A stretch of DNA of 12,156 nt, from NCBI GenBank assembly GCA_013140465.1, contig JABFST010000102.1, positions 1 to 12,156 on the forward strand, written 5' to 3'. This document shows, piece by piece, positions 1,753-8,669 of this stretch. The first letter of the stretch is position 1. Each line of letters begins with the position of its first letter. The notes below the pieces were generated by a model. The model was not told the origin of the DNA. It saw only the letters and a list, made by a program, of their open reading frames with translations, and made no database searches. The translations under genes and the position numbers were made by a program. This stretch comes from Methylococcaceae bacterium. Its GTDB lineage: Bacteria; Pseudomonadota; Gammaproteobacteria; Methylococcales; Methylomonadaceae.

Positions 1753-2715
1753 TTAATCCACTTCGACATAGCTTGTGGGCAATTTGGGCTGGTAGCTGGA
1801 TAAAGCCTTGCTCCGCAGAAAAACGCTACGGTGAATTTTGGCCCCTTCGGGGACTTTGCGCGAAACAGGCCGCCAAAGCTTCCAGAGTTTGCAATACGAC
1901 TCGTGCATGATGCCCGCCGGATTCGTGTTTAGGCGTTCACGCCAACCTTCTTTCAGCCTTAATCCTCGCTGTTCGGCTTTATCCAACATCCAAATCAGGC
2001 AAATATTGGATAAGTCACGCTCCTTATAAGATCCACCCACATCGCAATGCACGCCTGCAAACCATACTTGTTCCACCCACTGACCTTCTGCCAGCTGGGT
2101 TTCATCCCACAGGCTCACCGGAAATTTTTTGCGTTTTTCATCAATCGCCATCGCATGATAGGCATAAGTGACATCATTATTGAGGCGGTCGTCAAAAAAC
2201 TCCCGCCCCAACCATAAGCCCAATGAGCCGACGGTATCCCATACCCCAATAAAATAAGGCTTGCACTCATGGCAATAGGTCTTTTTAAAACCTTCGGCAA
2301 TCTCGTGATTATTACGCGTATTGTAAATCTCACTGGCATAAGCAATCAGATTATTGCTGCCTTTTTGCAACAAGCCCACTTTATGCAACATACCCGCCAA
2401 CGCCCTTACGGTAAACGCCCCCCGGCTAAAACCGAATAAAAACACCTTGTCACCTGGCTCGTAACGGTTCATCAGATACAAATAAGCATCTTCAATATTT
2501 TCGGTGATGCCATACCCAAAACCCATGCCCATCAAGATGCCTATTTTTTTGCCTAATATGCGCCCAAACACGCTAAACGTGCCTACACCCGGATCGTAAT
2601 AGGTCACTTGCCCTTTGTCGCGCACCACAGGCTCGTACATACCCACGACATTGGTGTTGTTCTCCCCATATTCATTACCCGTGCCATCACAGCAAACCAC
2701 TATATTTTTAGCCAT
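1753..2715 (-). CDS. DUF2235 domain protein, alpha/beta-hydrolase (Tle1-like phospholipase family)
   Basis: Predicted hydrolase of 320 residues from the DUF2235 family, which includes the Tle1 phospholipase effectors of type VI secretion. The N-terminal motif NIVVCCDGTGN (4-14) is the family hallmark. The nucleophile elbow GFSRG (95-99) places the catalytic serine at 97. Asp160 in GVWDTVGS and His223 in WFAGVHCDVGG complete a likely Ser-Asp-His triad. No signal peptide or membrane segment is seen, so it is probably cytoplasmic unless exported by a secretion system. ATG at 2715 is preceded by a GAGGGTGG ribosome site. It is a single-gene unit with its own likely promoter and terminator and is flanked by two copies of one repeat. 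No VgrG, PAAR or immunity gene is visible next to it, so an effector role is not supported here; substrate unknown. Confidence 0.85.
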   Translation of the reverse strand: MAKNIVVCCDGTGNEYGENNTNVVGMYEPVVRDKGQVTYYDPGVGTFSVFGRILGKKIGILMGMGFGYGITENIEDAYLYLMNRYEPGDKVFLFGFSRGAFTVRALAGMLHKVGLLQKGSNNLIAYASEIYNTRNNHEIAEGFKKTYCHECKPYFIGVWDTVGSLGLWLGREFFDDRLNNDVTYAYHAMAIDEKRKKFPVSLWDETQLAEGQWVEQVWFAGVHCDVGGSYKERDLSNICLIWMLDKAEQRGLRLKEGWRERLNTNPAGIMHESYCKLWKLWRPVSRKVPEGAKIHRSVFLRSKALSSYQPKLPTSYVEVD

Positions 2716-4689: not shown

Positions 4690-6585
4690 TTAGGCCGCTG
4701 CATAGCGGTTAAACAGCATAAACAACATATCACATTCATCATGGCTGGGCTGGGCCCAACCGGGTATCCCCAAATCTGCCAACACTTGCCGCCCTTGGCT
4801 ATCCAAACTCATATCCAGCAATACCTTTGTTAGTGCTGCGCCCAATTCGGCGTGTTGCGGCGACACGCAAAACAAATGGAACGCAAACGCAGTGTCACTT
4901 TGCTCTATGACGCGTAGATTTTTTCGGGTTAAGCCCGACAAGCCGCGATAAGTGTCGCTTAGCACAAACAAAATATCAGCATCGCCTTTCAGCAACATTT
5001 GCAGGGCCTTGATGTCGTGACCGGAAAACAAGTAGCGCATATCCGCCATGCTGGCATTGTCTTCTTCCAACAAAAACCGACCCAGCAAATACACAAAATT
5101 GTCAGGGGCAGCGGTCACAACCGTACCCCCTTCAAACGCACCTAACGTAAGGCGTGGTTCATCCGCACGCACTAACAAGGTCACTTCATCCACCTGATCC
5201 AAAGGCCGCATCAGAGGCTTAAATTGATGCTGCAAGATCAAACGGGTCGCTTCAAACGGCTTGGTAAAAACAATATCCATGTCTTCTATTTTTTTGCGCC
5301 GCTCGCCCATCGCCCCGTGTATCAACTCCAAATGCACCTCGCGGCCCAAATGCCGTTGCAAATAGGTGTTAAAAAAATACCAGCCATTCATTTGCTGGCT
5401 GCTTTGCGCATTAATCCAGAGATTAAGCTTTTCGTGGCTAGCAACAACCGTCGTGTTGCTGCGACGTTCGGGCATATCCATGAGCGTATCAACAGCCACA
5501 TGGGCCACACGCGCACTCGCCGCTTGGTTTAATGTGCTTGTAGCGGGTAACGGGGCATCGGTTAAAAATCGGTTAAGCCCGGTCATTTTAAAAAGCACGC
5601 CAATCATCCGGTTGGTATCGGTGATGCGGATGGTGATGTGCTGTTGCTGCCAATGCTCAAACAACTTGAGCAACTGCGCCAAGCCCATTGAGTTGACGCG
5701 CGACACTAGTGCAAAATTGAGTTCCACCGCACACTGTGGCGGCAAGGTATACAAGGGTGCTAAGGGCTGGATGGCATCAACATCGACAATACCCGCCAAT
5801 TTAAAACATTGCTGCAAGGCAGTGGCTGAAGGTGATGGCGAAATCTGCAAGCCATTGGCAACAAGCACAGGATCAGACGGTATTTCGGGGCTAGCGGCTT
5901 TAGGCGTAGGCGCAAGTGCTGTTGCAGGTGCTTCTGATAAAAACCGTGTTAAGCCTGTCATCTTAAACAACACGGTAATCATACGGTTGACATTGACGAC
6001 ATGCACCTTAACCGAATTTTTTTGCCAGTGTTCAAACAATTTCAGCAACTGCGCCAAGCCCATAGAATTGACGCGGTCTACCTTAGCGAAATCCAATTCC
6101 ACTGTACACTGGGGCGGCAACACATATAACGGCATTAAAATGTCTACAGATTTAACGTCAATAATGCCGACTAAGCTAAAACGTTGCTCTAGCAATAGCG
6201 CAGAAGGCTGGGGCAATATCTCTAGGCTAGGCGGCTCTACAGCCACTTCGGGCAATACGGGCGCCGCTTCGGTATCGGGTGACAAAAACCGCGCCAGCCC
6301 CGATTTATTGAACAGTAACCAAACCATTTGATTGGCGCTGGTCACGCGGATGGTAATGTCTTTTTTTTGCAGATGGTCAAACAACTTGAGCAATTGCGCC
6401 AAACCCATCGAGTTGATTTGTTCCACCTTGGCAAAGTTGAGTTCAGCCGTGGCTTTGGCGGGCAAAATATAAAGCGACTCCAACACTTCGGCAGCATGGA
6501 TGTCCACCGCACCGACTAGCGCGAATTGTTGCCAAAGCGTTTCTGCACACGGTTGTTGTTGGATGCGTAATTTAGCGTGGGTCAT
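4690..6585 (-). CDS. Triple STAS-domain protein fused to a PhnD-like ligand-binding domain
   Basis: A 631-residue protein, probably the phospho-acceptor and sensor half of a partner-switching circuit with the overlapping upstream gene. Three STAS (SpoIIAA/RsbV-like) domains lie at about 5-105, 125-218 and 250-342, joined by Pro/Ala-rich linkers. Each holds the block NSMGLAQLLKLF, with Ser59, Ser174 and Ser299 at the position phosphorylated in SpoIIAA; the preceding Asp is replaced by Asn in all three. Residues ~380-615 resemble the PhnD/phosphonate-binding family of ABC solute-binding proteins: DMDIVFTKPFEA (435-446), LLKGDADILFVLSD (531-544) and the closing LADLGIPGW (602-610). There is no signal peptide or membrane helix, so it should be cytoplasmic. 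ATG at 6585 overlaps the upstream TGA, with GAGG 7 nt before it. Domain calls are strong; the signal and output are unknown. Confidence 0.85.
   Translation of the reverse strand: MTHAKLRIQQQPCAETLWQQFALVGAVDIHAAEVLESLYILPAKATAELNFAKVEQINSMGLAQLLKLFDHLQKKDITIRVTSANQMVWLLFNKSGLARFLSPDTEAAPVLPEVAVEPPSLEILPQPSALLLEQRFSLVGIIDVKSVDILMPLYVLPPQCTVELDFAKVDRVNSMGLAQLLKLFEHWQKNSVKVHVVNVNRMITVLFKMTGLTRFLSEAPATALAPTPKAASPEIPSDPVLVANGLQISPSPSATALQQCFKLAGIVDVDAIQPLAPLYTLPPQCAVELNFALVSRVNSMGLAQLLKLFEHWQQQHITIRITDTNRMIGVLFKMTGLNRFLTDAPLPATSTLNQAASARVAHVAVDTLMDMPERRSNTTVVASHEKLNLWINAQSSQQMNGWYFFNTYLQRHLGREVHLELIHGAMGERRKKIEDMDIVFTKPFEATRLILQHQFKPLMRPLDQVDEVTLLVRADEPRLTLGAFEGGTVVTAAPDNFVYLLGRFLLEEDNASMADMRYLFSGHDIKALQMLLKGDADILFVLSDTYRGLSGLTRKNLRVIEQSDTAFAFHLFCVSPQHAELGAALTKVLLDMSLDSQGRQVLADLGIPGWAQPSHDECDMLFMLFNRYAAA
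5560..6573 (-). repeat. Three tandem STAS-coding units within one gene
   Basis: The units cover about 6573-6271, 6213-5932 and 5838-5560. The phospho-site serines are 115 and 125 residues apart. DNA encoding the NSMGLAQLLKLF block is nearly identical in all three (around 6417-6380, 6072-6036 and 5696-5660). Units 2 and 3 are closer to each other (both VNSMGLAQLLKLFEHWQ and LFKMTGL) than to unit 1, suggesting that one of them arose by a later duplication. Confidence 0.8.
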
Positions 6586-8669
6586 GATTGGGCCTCGTAT
6601 AATTCGCTGTGATAAAGGAATTGAAAACCTTTATCGGCTTCGGGATCGAACGGGTTATTAAAATCCATAAATGCACAGACTTGGGTTTGCCGATTTGGGA
6701 ACACGCGCAGTTGCAGGTAGTCCGACATACGCCAAATCAAATACAGCCCACCACCGCCGACACCCGACTCCAAGCCCATACCCAACACATGGCGCGACAA
6801 TCGCCCTAAAAACACACTCGGCGTTAAAGTACCCCAACTATCGGTTAGCGATATGCCCAACAAACCGTTTTGGATAGAAATATCCAAGCGTAATGTTTCA
6901 TCGTCATCCAGGGCGCGTACCGTGCCTTTTGGATATAAAGGCCGTCCTTTACCGTCGCGCGGCGCCGCACACAAGCCATTTTCAATCAGCTCATCCAACA
7001 GAAAAATGGCGGCATCCACCCGCTCAGGATGAAGCAAATTAAGTTCTTGCAGCCAAGCATCCACTTCATTAATGATGAAAACTTTGTCTTCGGTATGAAA
7101 AAATTGGAATTCCCTGCGTTGCTCGGGTGCATCCAACAACACCGCCAAATCGTCATGGTGGCTGTGTTGGTGTTGGGATAACAACGCTTCCCAGCCCAAG
7201 CGCGAAGAAATCGCTTGATCTTTTAACAAAATGCGCCGCACGCCTTGGGAGGACAACTGCGGAATCAGCCCAGAAAAATTTTCTTCTGCCAAATACACCA
7301 CCACCTGCCGGGAAATGCGCGGGGAAATCGTGACGGGGTTGCTACGGTAATGCGCATCGTGGATGTGTTCGTGTTCAATGGCCTCGGGTAGGCTAGGCGC
7401 TTCGGCCTGAAACACGGCAAAATCGCTGGTTTTTTCCAGATATTCGACACAAAAAATAGTCACGTCATCCAGAAACTCCGAACGCCCCAAAAAGCCAGTC
7501 AAGGCGGTCAGCACCTTGTGGTTTAGGGTTTCGATATTGCTGTCACCTTGCGCCAGCAACAACGCTTCCAAGCGTTCATAACCAAAACACTCACCTGCTG
7601 CATTTTCTTCTTCAACAATACTATCGGTATAAAGGAACAGGCGGTCGCCCAAATCCATTTCGGTGCTGTGCTGTTCGTACTCGGTATGTTCGTTTTTGCC
7701 TAAAGGTAAACCACCCACTTCGAGACTATCTAACTGCTCCAACATAGAACGGTAAACGTAGGCAAACTGGTGGCCCGCATTCGCATAGCGCAACTCACCC
7801 GTGCGGGTGTCCAAACACACCGCAAACATAGTCATTAATAAGGCTTGGTGTGCCGTGTTAAAAATAATGTTGCTTAAGCGCGTGAGAATTTTTTGCGGCT
7901 CTTTTTCGTGTTCGGCCTCTAAAAAATTAACGCCCGCTTTCGCCGCGCACACAATCGTCCCTGCGGCTATCCCGTGTCCGCTGACATCGCCGACCAGCAT
8001 CACGACCCAACGCCCGTCTACCCGATAATAATCGTAAAAATCGCCACCGACTTCACTCGACGTCAGCATCGTCGAATACCCTTGTACACCCGCCATGTCG
8101 ATCCGCGCAGGGCGCAGCAAGTTACGCTGCAAGGCGGCGGCATTCGCCACTTCGGCATTCAGGCGCGTACTGAGCTGCTGCATGGTTTCAATAAGCTGGC
8201 CTTGCGATTGCGACAGCTTGAGCATCATGTCAGCCACTTTAACCACACCCAAAATACCTGCTGCGCCTATCACAGGCAAAGCTTCGTATTTGATGCTGGG
8301 ATCTATGCTTAAAAAATCGAGTATGACTTGATCTATGCGGTCATCGGCCTTGGCTATCAGCGGCACGATAAAAATGTCTTCATGCCCATCCAACAAAAAT
8401 TCCAGATTTTTGCGGGCATACAATTCACGCGCATAAGCACGCGTCATAAAATTAAGGAAGTTGCGCCGGGAAATAATGCCAAAATAGTCGCCGCTTAAAT
8501 CGATGACAGGTAAGGCGGACAGCTCGGCCTGGCTTTGAAAGTAGCCCAGCACATCGAGGATAGGCGTAGATAGCGGTATCGGGCTGACCGTTTGGGTCAT
8601 ATCACCCACAGTGGGGACAAAAAATGCCGTAGAGGCAATAGCGAGATGACTGGTGTTTTGCTCAGACAT
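6582..8669 (-). CDS. CBS-SpoIIE phosphatase-HATPase protein, RsbU/RsbW-like switch regulator
   Basis: A 695-residue cytoplasmic regulator combining opposing activities. Residues ~15-150 form a CBS pair, often a nucleotide sensor. A helical linker (~150-188) leads to a SpoIIE/PP2C phosphatase (~190-412) with its metal-binding acidic residues: Asp210 in EVGGDFYD, Asp228 in GDVSGHG, Asp401/402 in LDDVT. Residues ~530-670 look like a Bergerat ATPase of the SpoIIAB/RsbW type: N-box LLDELIENG (Glu560 as likely base, Asn564 as Mg ligand), DSWG (610-613) and the glycine loop GVGGGG (636-641). The middle (~430-520) is unassigned and has two His-rich patches. It would dephosphorylate and phosphorylate the STAS protein encoded by the overlapping downstream gene. 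ATG at 8669 is preferred over an in-frame TTG at 8681; neither has a clear ribosome site. The fusion resembles HsbR and SypE but has CBS domains instead of a receiver. Confidence 0.85.
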   Translation of the reverse strand: MSEQNTSHLAIASTAFFVPTVGDMTQTVSPIPLSTPILDVLGYFQSQAELSALPVIDLSGDYFGIISRRNFLNFMTRAYARELYARKNLEFLLDGHEDIFIVPLIAKADDRIDQVILDFLSIDPSIKYEALPVIGAAGILGVVKVADMMLKLSQSQGQLIETMQQLSTRLNAEVANAAALQRNLLRPARIDMAGVQGYSTMLTSSEVGGDFYDYYRVDGRWVVMLVGDVSGHGIAAGTIVCAAKAGVNFLEAEHEKEPQKILTRLSNIIFNTAHQALLMTMFAVCLDTRTGELRYANAGHQFAYVYRSMLEQLDSLEVGGLPLGKNEHTEYEQHSTEMDLGDRLFLYTDSIVEEENAAGECFGYERLEALLLAQGDSNIETLNHKVLTALTGFLGRSEFLDDVTIFCVEYLEKTSDFAVFQAEAPSLPEAIEHEHIHDAHYRSNPVTISPRISRQVVVYLAEENFSGLIPQLSSQGVRRILLKDQAISSRLGWEALLSQHQHSHHDDLAVLLDAPEQRREFQFFHTEDKVFIINEVDAWLQELNLLHPERVDAAIFLLDELIENGLCAAPRDGKGRPLYPKGTVRALDDDETLRLDISIQNGLLGISLTDSWGTLTPSVFLGRLSRHVLGMGLESGVGGGGLYLIWRMSDYLQLRVFPNRQTQVCAFMDFNNPFDPEADKGFQFLYHSELYEAQS
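6593..6596 (-). promoter_or_regulatory. Ribosome binding site of the STAS gene inside the phosphatase gene
   Basis: GAGG on the minus strand lies 7 nt before the STAS-gene ATG at 6585 and within the last codons of the phosphatase gene. With the ATGA stop/start overlap (6585-6582) it supports translational coupling and therefore matched expression of the two proteins. Confidence 0.6.

Follow-up and report, generated by a model that had tools for sequence, protein, structure and literature searches.

The systems closest to the gene pair analysed here place a serine kinase and a serine phosphatase on one polypeptide and have a STAS protein as partner. HsbR is reportedly such a dual serine kinase/phosphatase, with the STAS protein HsbA as substrate, and in the SypE/HsbR subfamily a receiver domain controls the kinase/phosphatase. 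Rv1364c has a PAS-RsbU-RsbW-RsbV layout in one chain. For SypE of Vibrio fischeri, passages of a published study describe a dual serine kinase/phosphatase acting on Ser56 of SypA, with the unphosphorylated STAS protein as the output (PMC8256260). Two further systems enter the comparison: AioX and its orthologues are described as periplasmic oxyanion binders (PMC5908839), and in the actinobacterial conservons (CvnA-D) a single operon is described that encodes a HATPase sensor, a Roadblock protein, a GTPase and one more small protein (PMC13343842).

In a window of 12,156 nucleotides (the whole stretch of DNA that was analysed, on contig C197 of the genome of a methane-oxidising bacterium, which measures 3.6 Mb in 507 contigs and is rated 83% complete), two overlapping genes represent a real, conserved and apparently undescribed variant of partner switching (Table 1). 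As in SypE/SypA and HsbR/HsbA, phosphatase and presumed kinase lie on one polypeptide, there is one STAS partner protein, and its conserved serine is found at the same place. Unlike SypE and HsbR, the pair has no receiver domain and carries a CBS pair or, in other members, PAS with or without PilJ; the domain order, PP2C and then ATPase, also differs from that of SypE. The STAS partner, unlike SypA and HsbA, is fused to a PhnD-like fold and can have two to three STAS copies. The RsbU-RsbW order and the fold of the AF2 model of gene 1 are matched by Rv1364c (3ke6), in fold comparison lists that are dominated by the PhnD and PP2C parts, but the STAS part, contained in the same chain in Rv1364c, has its own overlapping gene here, occurs in several copies and is joined to the PhnD fold. 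The pair has these parts of an RsbU/RsbV/RsbW-type module: a PP2C/SpoIIE domain with its metal-binding Asp residues, a Bergerat-type domain (by fold only) and STAS domains with a conserved acceptor serine. On balance, we think it probable that the pair works as a partner switch based on serine phosphorylation, with an acceptor that carries the PhnD-like fold as its business end.

Table 1 Features of the gene pair in the window and of related loci elsewhere.
Feature	Position	Strand	Basis
Gene 1 (P0001), 695 aa: CBS pair, PP2C/SpoIIE phosphatase, Bergerat-type ATPase	6582..8669	-	ORF, Pfam, AF2, fold match to Rv1364c (3ke6)
CBS pair, putative nucleotide-type sensor, residues 20-152	8214..8612	-	Pfam CBS 22-75; family profile
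PP2C/SpoIIE phosphatase, residues 166-410; D210, D228, D349, D402	7440..8174	-	Pfam, 8e-37
Conserved stretch between phosphatase and ATPase, about residues 434-515 (~80 residues)	7125..7370	-	Alignments
Bergerat/HATPase_c_2-type ATPase, presumed serine kinase, residues 517-690	6600..7121	-	Relatives, conserved residues, fold
Gene 2 (P0002), 631 aa: STASx3-PhnD-like protein	4690..6585	-	ORF, Pfam, AF2 model
STAS 1, residues 5-102, Ser59 of NSMG	6280..6573	-	Pfam, alignment
STAS 2, residues 121-219, Ser174 of NSMG	5929..6225	-	Pfam, alignment
STAS 3, residues 246-344, Ser299 of NSMG, adjoins PhnD fold	5554..5850	-	Pfam, alignment
Cytoplasmic PhnD-like domain (PF12974), residues 384-631	4693..5436	-	Pfam, AF2
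Operon: 242-aa, 414-aa, Ras-like GTPase, 218-aa, Roadblock, PAS, PhnD	L035 3343-8168 (own genome, C95)
Ammonium transporter genes near the pair	L147 10158-11609; L149 4064-5491; L151 4299-6048; L124 10616-12025

Domains of gene 1 and setting of the pair

An earlier reading of the window from its letters alone (the sequence-only reading) had named the domains and the gene overlap, and both held up: Pfam matches CBS, SpoIIE/PP2C, STAS and PF12974, the ATPase is recovered via relatives and fold comparison, and the stop of gene 1 and the start of gene 2 share the bases ATGA. Upstream of the pair in the window, the same strand carries a tRNA-synthetase-family gene and dksA; downstream, the opposite strand carries an Fe-S assembly gene and a semialdehyde-dehydrogenase gene resembling argC. 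No recognised downstream target gene of the switch lies in the window. A Tle1-like catalytic domain (T6SS phospholipase-type, PF09994, 6.6e-75) is encoded at 1753-2715 (-), and no T6SS gene was found among the window genes scanned. The named relatives are Methylococcales, often Methylovulum.

From N- to C-terminus, the gene 1 product (AF2 model with a pLDDT of 83.7) consists of the CBS pair, a long helix, the PP2C/SpoIIE phosphatase, a conserved stretch that has no Pfam match, and the ATPase-like domain (Pfam, AF2). A family profile matches the CBS-pair structures 5awe and AcuB across residues 25/30-152. Among seven gene 1-type proteins without CBS that were scanned with Pfam, PAS was found in all seven and PilJ in five; neither these seven nor the window protein showed a receiver domain. 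The phosphatase part has a fold as in SiaA/RssB (AF2 model, fold comparison). Its four aspartates listed in Table 1, which we take to be those of the metal site, are kept in 75-76 of 76 aligned gene 1 proteins, a set defined by matches to both PP2C and ATPase and including the window copy.

The sequence-only reading also held the C-terminal domain to be a Bergerat ATPase, and here the outcome was divided. Taken alone, the window's own sequence does not bear this out: Pfam ATPase models were not matched, a C-terminal profile gave 0 matches to PDB chains up to E 5, and hhalign, run with an RsbW-like protein encoded in the same genome as a single template sequence, found nothing. The lack of a Bergerat profile match is what the sequence-only reading had named as refuting it, and for the window's sequence by itself this formally applies; we set it aside because the relatives and the fold comparison override it. 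HATPase_c_2 is matched by 18 of 34 relatives of the gene 1 product and by 8 of 9 C-terminal pieces of relatives (Pfam), and in the alignment of 76 proteins the N-box and G1 residues are present throughout, with one G2 position present in 74. In P0001, the boxes are E560xxxN564 (N-box), D610xxG613 (G1) and GxGGxG (G2). The window's domain is accordingly named here, by its fold only, as a Bergerat-type ATPase, and it is a presumed serine kinase. Two of the 34 aligned relatives, P0109 and P0121, have lost the Glu of the N-box together with a portion of the G2 box; their kinase is probably inactive and, since the N-box is changed in these two, some members of the family may have lost the kinase.

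Pairing, acceptor serine and STAS copy number

A scan of the genome contigs yielded 92 relatives, of which the best 80 STAS-PhnD loci were kept and named. In 78 of these 80 loci, mostly from methanotrophs, the STAS-PhnD gene is immediately preceded on its strand by an ORF with the ATPase. When the longest ORFs are used, the two overlap or are at most 20 bp apart in each of the 78. The phosphatase resides in the same ORF as the ATPase in 75 of the 78, the remaining three being short pieces, and the two loci that have no upstream ATPase gene (L110 and L140) both lie near contig ends. This is the co-occurrence that the sequence-only reading had proposed to look for, and its pairing of a kinase/phosphatase with a STAS substrate gains from it, as it does from the catalytic residues and the acceptor serine, which are conserved in the alignments. 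The distances of the two proteins correlate (r = 0.94, 76 loci), as co-inheritance alone would likewise give. Beyond the Methylococcales, hosts among the best 80 of the 92 relatives include Leucothrix, Sphaerotilus, Leptothrix and three Acidithiobacillus.

The own genome has a second pair on contig C70. Its first protein (900 aa) is of the PAS-SpoIIE-ATPase type and hydrophobic at the N-terminus, its second (373 aa) joins a single STAS domain to PhnD, and the genes overlap by four bases. In a tree built from 81 PhnD domains, one side of a branch (27 rows, 96/91) is made up of the CBS-type proteins, including that of the window; two loci that lack an upstream gene and one that has a fragment are also found there. 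The label 'TM' in this tree denotes merely that there is no CBS match; L139 is so labelled, although its upstream gene is a fragment. A separate, more classical set was seen on one contig in L173 (own genome, C329) and in L003, consisting of a SpoIIE protein whose N-terminus looks receiver-like by eye, a stand-alone STAS protein with a DSS motif and an RsbW-like ATPase.

The serine of the NSMG motif aligns with that of DSTG in RsbV of structure 6m36 (E 1e-5), in whose numbering the first Met is presumably missing, for which we allowed. This DSTG serine is taken to be Ser56 of RsbV, the phosphorylation site according to passages of a published paper (PMC11418112). The acceptor serine is invariant in 187 of 187 STAS domains from the 120 best of 369 homologues in a protein search; it is preceded by Asn here and by Asp in RsbV, a difference that counts against the switch. 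This count is free of the selection bias of a separate one, in which NSMGL was found in 103 of 103 domains but which is partly circular, as one of the two patterns used to pick the loci contained NSMGL.

The STAS domains are present once in 70, twice in 33 and three times in 17 of the same 120 best homologues. The single STAS is thus the commonest form, and two or three copies are expansions; the sequence-only reading had treated the three acceptors as defining the system, and the triple acceptor as its hallmark is ruled out by these counts. Within triple proteins, identity between STAS domains at the same position (67-70%) exceeds that between other positions (53-63%), which indicates that the triple was inherited and that the copies have since drifted apart, the first copy most. 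A quick tree needs at least nine copy-number changes; its starred branches force fewer, and with each copy-number group considered by itself these are 2 for one copy, 4 for two copies and 3 for three. Rows with one, two and three copies are nested among each other within the CBS branch, and a separate clade (P0172, P0191, P0235, P0237) has two or three. As this separate multi-copy clade exists, the expansion probably occurred more than once. L110 (149-1637, Methylocucumis oryzae) falls in the triple-STAS clade and has one STAS in the open frame near a contig end; this copy is perhaps truncated or frameshifted.

The matches of the STAS part also bear on two other roles for the pair. A match to TIGR00377 (anti-sigma factor antagonist, 1.7e-21) and to the RsbV profile is what one would expect if the ATPase also bound a sigma factor and the STAS-PhnD protein were an anti-anti-sigma factor with an added tail. 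Such classical sigma/anti-sigma switching is very unlikely in our view, since the kinase is fused to phosphatase and sensor in the fashion of SypE and no sigma gene is present among the window genes scanned, an absence that the sequence-only reading had also noted. The STAS domains further match NCBIfam MlaB (1e-14, 54.7 bits versus a cut-off of 90) and MlaB structures, and some homologues bear the source name 'Mla MlaB component', as if the STAS domains were scaffolds of a membrane transporter and the PhnD fold its binding protein. To this structural role we give hardly any credence: the PhnD fold lies behind the STAS domains and hence is not exported, the pairing with a phosphatase/ATPase bearing conserved catalytic residues is steady, and the window genes scanned include no ABC-transporter gene, the sole transporter being of the CitMHS type (1-1464).

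The PhnD-like domain and its possible inputs

With the PhnD fold beginning at residue 384, behind three STAS domains, there is no room for a signal peptide (AF2, sequence), and the gene 2 product does not have the character of an exported protein as a PhnD-type ABC transporter binding protein would. For comparison, inspection shows a hydrophobic leader in the PhnD-like protein L162 of the own genome. The best fold matches include the receptors XAC2383 (one entry with bound ATP), ArrX and AioX, with the transport protein PtxB close behind; the domain is a cytoplasmic version of a fold that serves in reception in XAC2383, ArrX and AioX and in transport in PtxB and PhnD. In contrast to XAC2383, ArrX and AioX, it is cytoplasmic, tied to STAS and devoid of the Ser-x-Ser motif. 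This oxyanion motif (AioX Ser161, Ser163) is replaced by DNF/DSF/DPDV in sequence alignments of low identity, and the His position varies. A stand-alone PhnD-only protein gave 0 phmmer matches to PDB up to E 1. In L159 (4906-6143) and L160 (5225-6517), cytoplasmic PhnD-like genes lie directly 3' of a gene for an SCP2 sterol-transfer-type protein.

Control by a small molecule, as put forward in the sequence-only reading, does not follow from this domain: the phosphate-binding Ser-x-Ser is absent and the domain is cytoplasmic. The domain could nevertheless be a cytoplasmic ligand sensor that is closed by a phosphate-like compound, a nucleotide or another metabolite and biases STAS phosphorylation, the STAS part then driving an unlinked target. 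The receptors among the best fold matches speak for it, though PtxB is close behind, and ammonium-transporter genes near the pair in four of the 80 clustered loci, three of them from Acidithiobacillus, hint at a metabolite input in some lineages. These genes adjoin the pair in L147, L149 and L151, where a P-II gene lies upstream in L151, and are close by on the other strand in L124. The replaced motif and the variable His position argue against a sensor, as does the occurrence of the PhnD fold as a separate protein in a Roadblock operon, which is what would be expected of an interaction module. We therefore regard a ligand sensor as doubtful, if possible.

Another conceivable output is cyclic-di-GMP, with the STAS-PhnD protein docking on a GGDEF/EAL enzyme as HsbA of Pseudomonas is said to do. 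One neighbour cluster occurs near the pair in six of the 80 loci (L116, L133, L144, L147, L148, L149), and GGDEF-EAL was found in both members scanned (L148 10086-12230; L149 5625-7430). Since GGDEF-EAL genes are numerous in such genomes, this adjacency is likely due to chance; the gene in L148 lies on the opposite strand, and none was seen beside the window pair. The best fold match of the PhnD-like domain, XAC2383, is by the title of its paper a periplasmic receptor paired with a diguanylate cyclase, which would agree with such an output, but we consider it very unlikely.

Clustering of neighbours in the 80 loci revealed no family beside the pair in most loci, and hence no conserved flanking target. 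The commonest neighbour family (10 loci) was rejected as a target, as it is confined to the Methylovulum-like CBS branch and resembles plain synteny. Because ammonium-transporter, P-II and GGDEF-EAL neighbours vary by lineage, input or output may differ between lineages.

The Roadblock/PAS/PhnD operon and the proposed switch

Stand-alone cytoplasmic relatives of the PhnD-like domain belong to a conserved Roadblock/PAS operon, usually with a Ras-like GTPase. Besides the copy in the own genome (Table 1), the operon was seen in L034, L107, L153, L154 and L158, and, with no GTPase detected, in L152 and L157. Its ~242-, ~414- and ~218-aa proteins have no Pfam match above the cut-off. Of six distant copies examined, which come from further genomes within the class, all contain the Roadblock, PhnD and 218-aa genes, five contain PAS and three (L153, L154, L158) the GTPase, which was not found in L152 and L157, while L161 ends at a contig edge.

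The pair itself is found beside genes of this operon in 4 of the 80 named loci, or 3 if the sisters L107 and L108 are counted once: GTPase and Roadblock genes adjoin it in L102 and L107, the GTPase in L108 and a Roadblock gene, just upstream, in L095. In L034/L102, the phosphatase/ATPase and STAS-PhnD genes lie inside the operon, between the 218-aa and Roadblock genes, and in L107 and L108 the pair is just upstream of it. Under a rough Poisson model (one 6-kb operon per 4-Mb genome, loci independent despite the sisters), about 0.28 adjacencies are expected, with a tail of 0.0002 for four loci and 0.003 for three. The operon genes were not seen beside the pair in 76 of the 80 loci, though just 54 loci are flanked by 2 kb of sequence on each side. 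Outside the Poisson set, L155, from another family, has a Roadblock gene (Pfam 9.5e-8) 3' of the pair; L094 and L124, where a relative of the operon's 414-aa protein lies nearby, were left out of the adjacency count. No GTPase or Roadblock gene is among the window genes scanned.

At the genome level, STAS-PhnD is present in 51 of 251 Methylococcales genomes, and 49 of these 51 have the GTPase compared to 59 of the 200 others (Fisher 2e-19, genomes treated without correction for ancestry; E cut 1e-60, with three of 111 GTPase rows above the cut). G866 and G941 have STAS-PhnD and no GTPase. From the window's genus, only G000 and G002 were matched in these counts, each with both genes. Since many genomes have the operon and no STAS-PhnD, the operon is able to function by itself, and the pair may serve it as an extra control. 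The sequence-only reading called the module self-contained; this description has to be given up, as the PhnD-like part has a stand-alone relative in the Roadblock/PAS/GTPase operon, which the pair sometimes adjoins. The neighbourhood is not described in passages of a survey of prokaryotic small GTPases (PMC4316618). The L034/L102 cluster resembles the conservons in its parts list only. Unlike in these, the window has no GTPase or Roadblock neighbour, PP2C, STAS and PhnD are outside the four core Cvn proteins, and the phylum is another.

For the partner switch that we favour, we infer the following course from the domains, the pairing and the conserved residues. Both opposing enzymes would reside on gene 1, the PP2C domain stripping phosphate from, and the Bergerat ATPase adding it to, the NSMG-loop serine of each of the STAS domains. 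The N-terminal sensor (a CBS pair in the window; in the scanned proteins of other branches PAS, which frequently comes with a PilJ-like part) would tune the balance of kinase and phosphatase, and the state of the STAS domains would then free or mask the acceptor protein, with the PhnD-like domain as business end. The likeliest partner of this end would be the Roadblock/PAS/PhnD system with its Ras-like GTPase, which is near-universal in the same genomes. We assign this output only tentatively and regard the GTPase step itself as doubtful, because L152 and L157 have no detectable GTPase and GGDEF-EAL recurs near the pair. One specific form, in which STAS-PhnD, once dephosphorylated, uses its PhnD-like domain to vie with free cytoplasmic PhnD for the Roadblock/PAS/GTPase complex and phosphorylation of one to three STAS domains sets the level of free competitor, is offered as a speculation that we think unlikely as it stands. 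The phosphorylation itself, the active state and the ligands of the CBS and PhnD parts are likewise put forward conditionally.

What is least special about the system is how many STAS domains it has, and the Roadblock/GTPase link is the part worth testing; the natural series, in which the same backbone bears one, two or three STAS domains, is a ready test of the effect of extra acceptors. In the open-licence literature, judged by titles and abstracts, we found no paper on a STAS-PhnD fusion or on Roadblock-GTPase partner switching. If the link is right, serine partner switching would be joined to MglA/Roadblock-type small GTPases, two systems unlinked in the literature searched, and a periplasmic-type binding fold would work inside the cell as a signalling part. 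Methanotrophs and their kin would then have a counterpart to the conservons of actinobacteria, with a nutrient-binding fold turned into an intracellular signalling adaptor.
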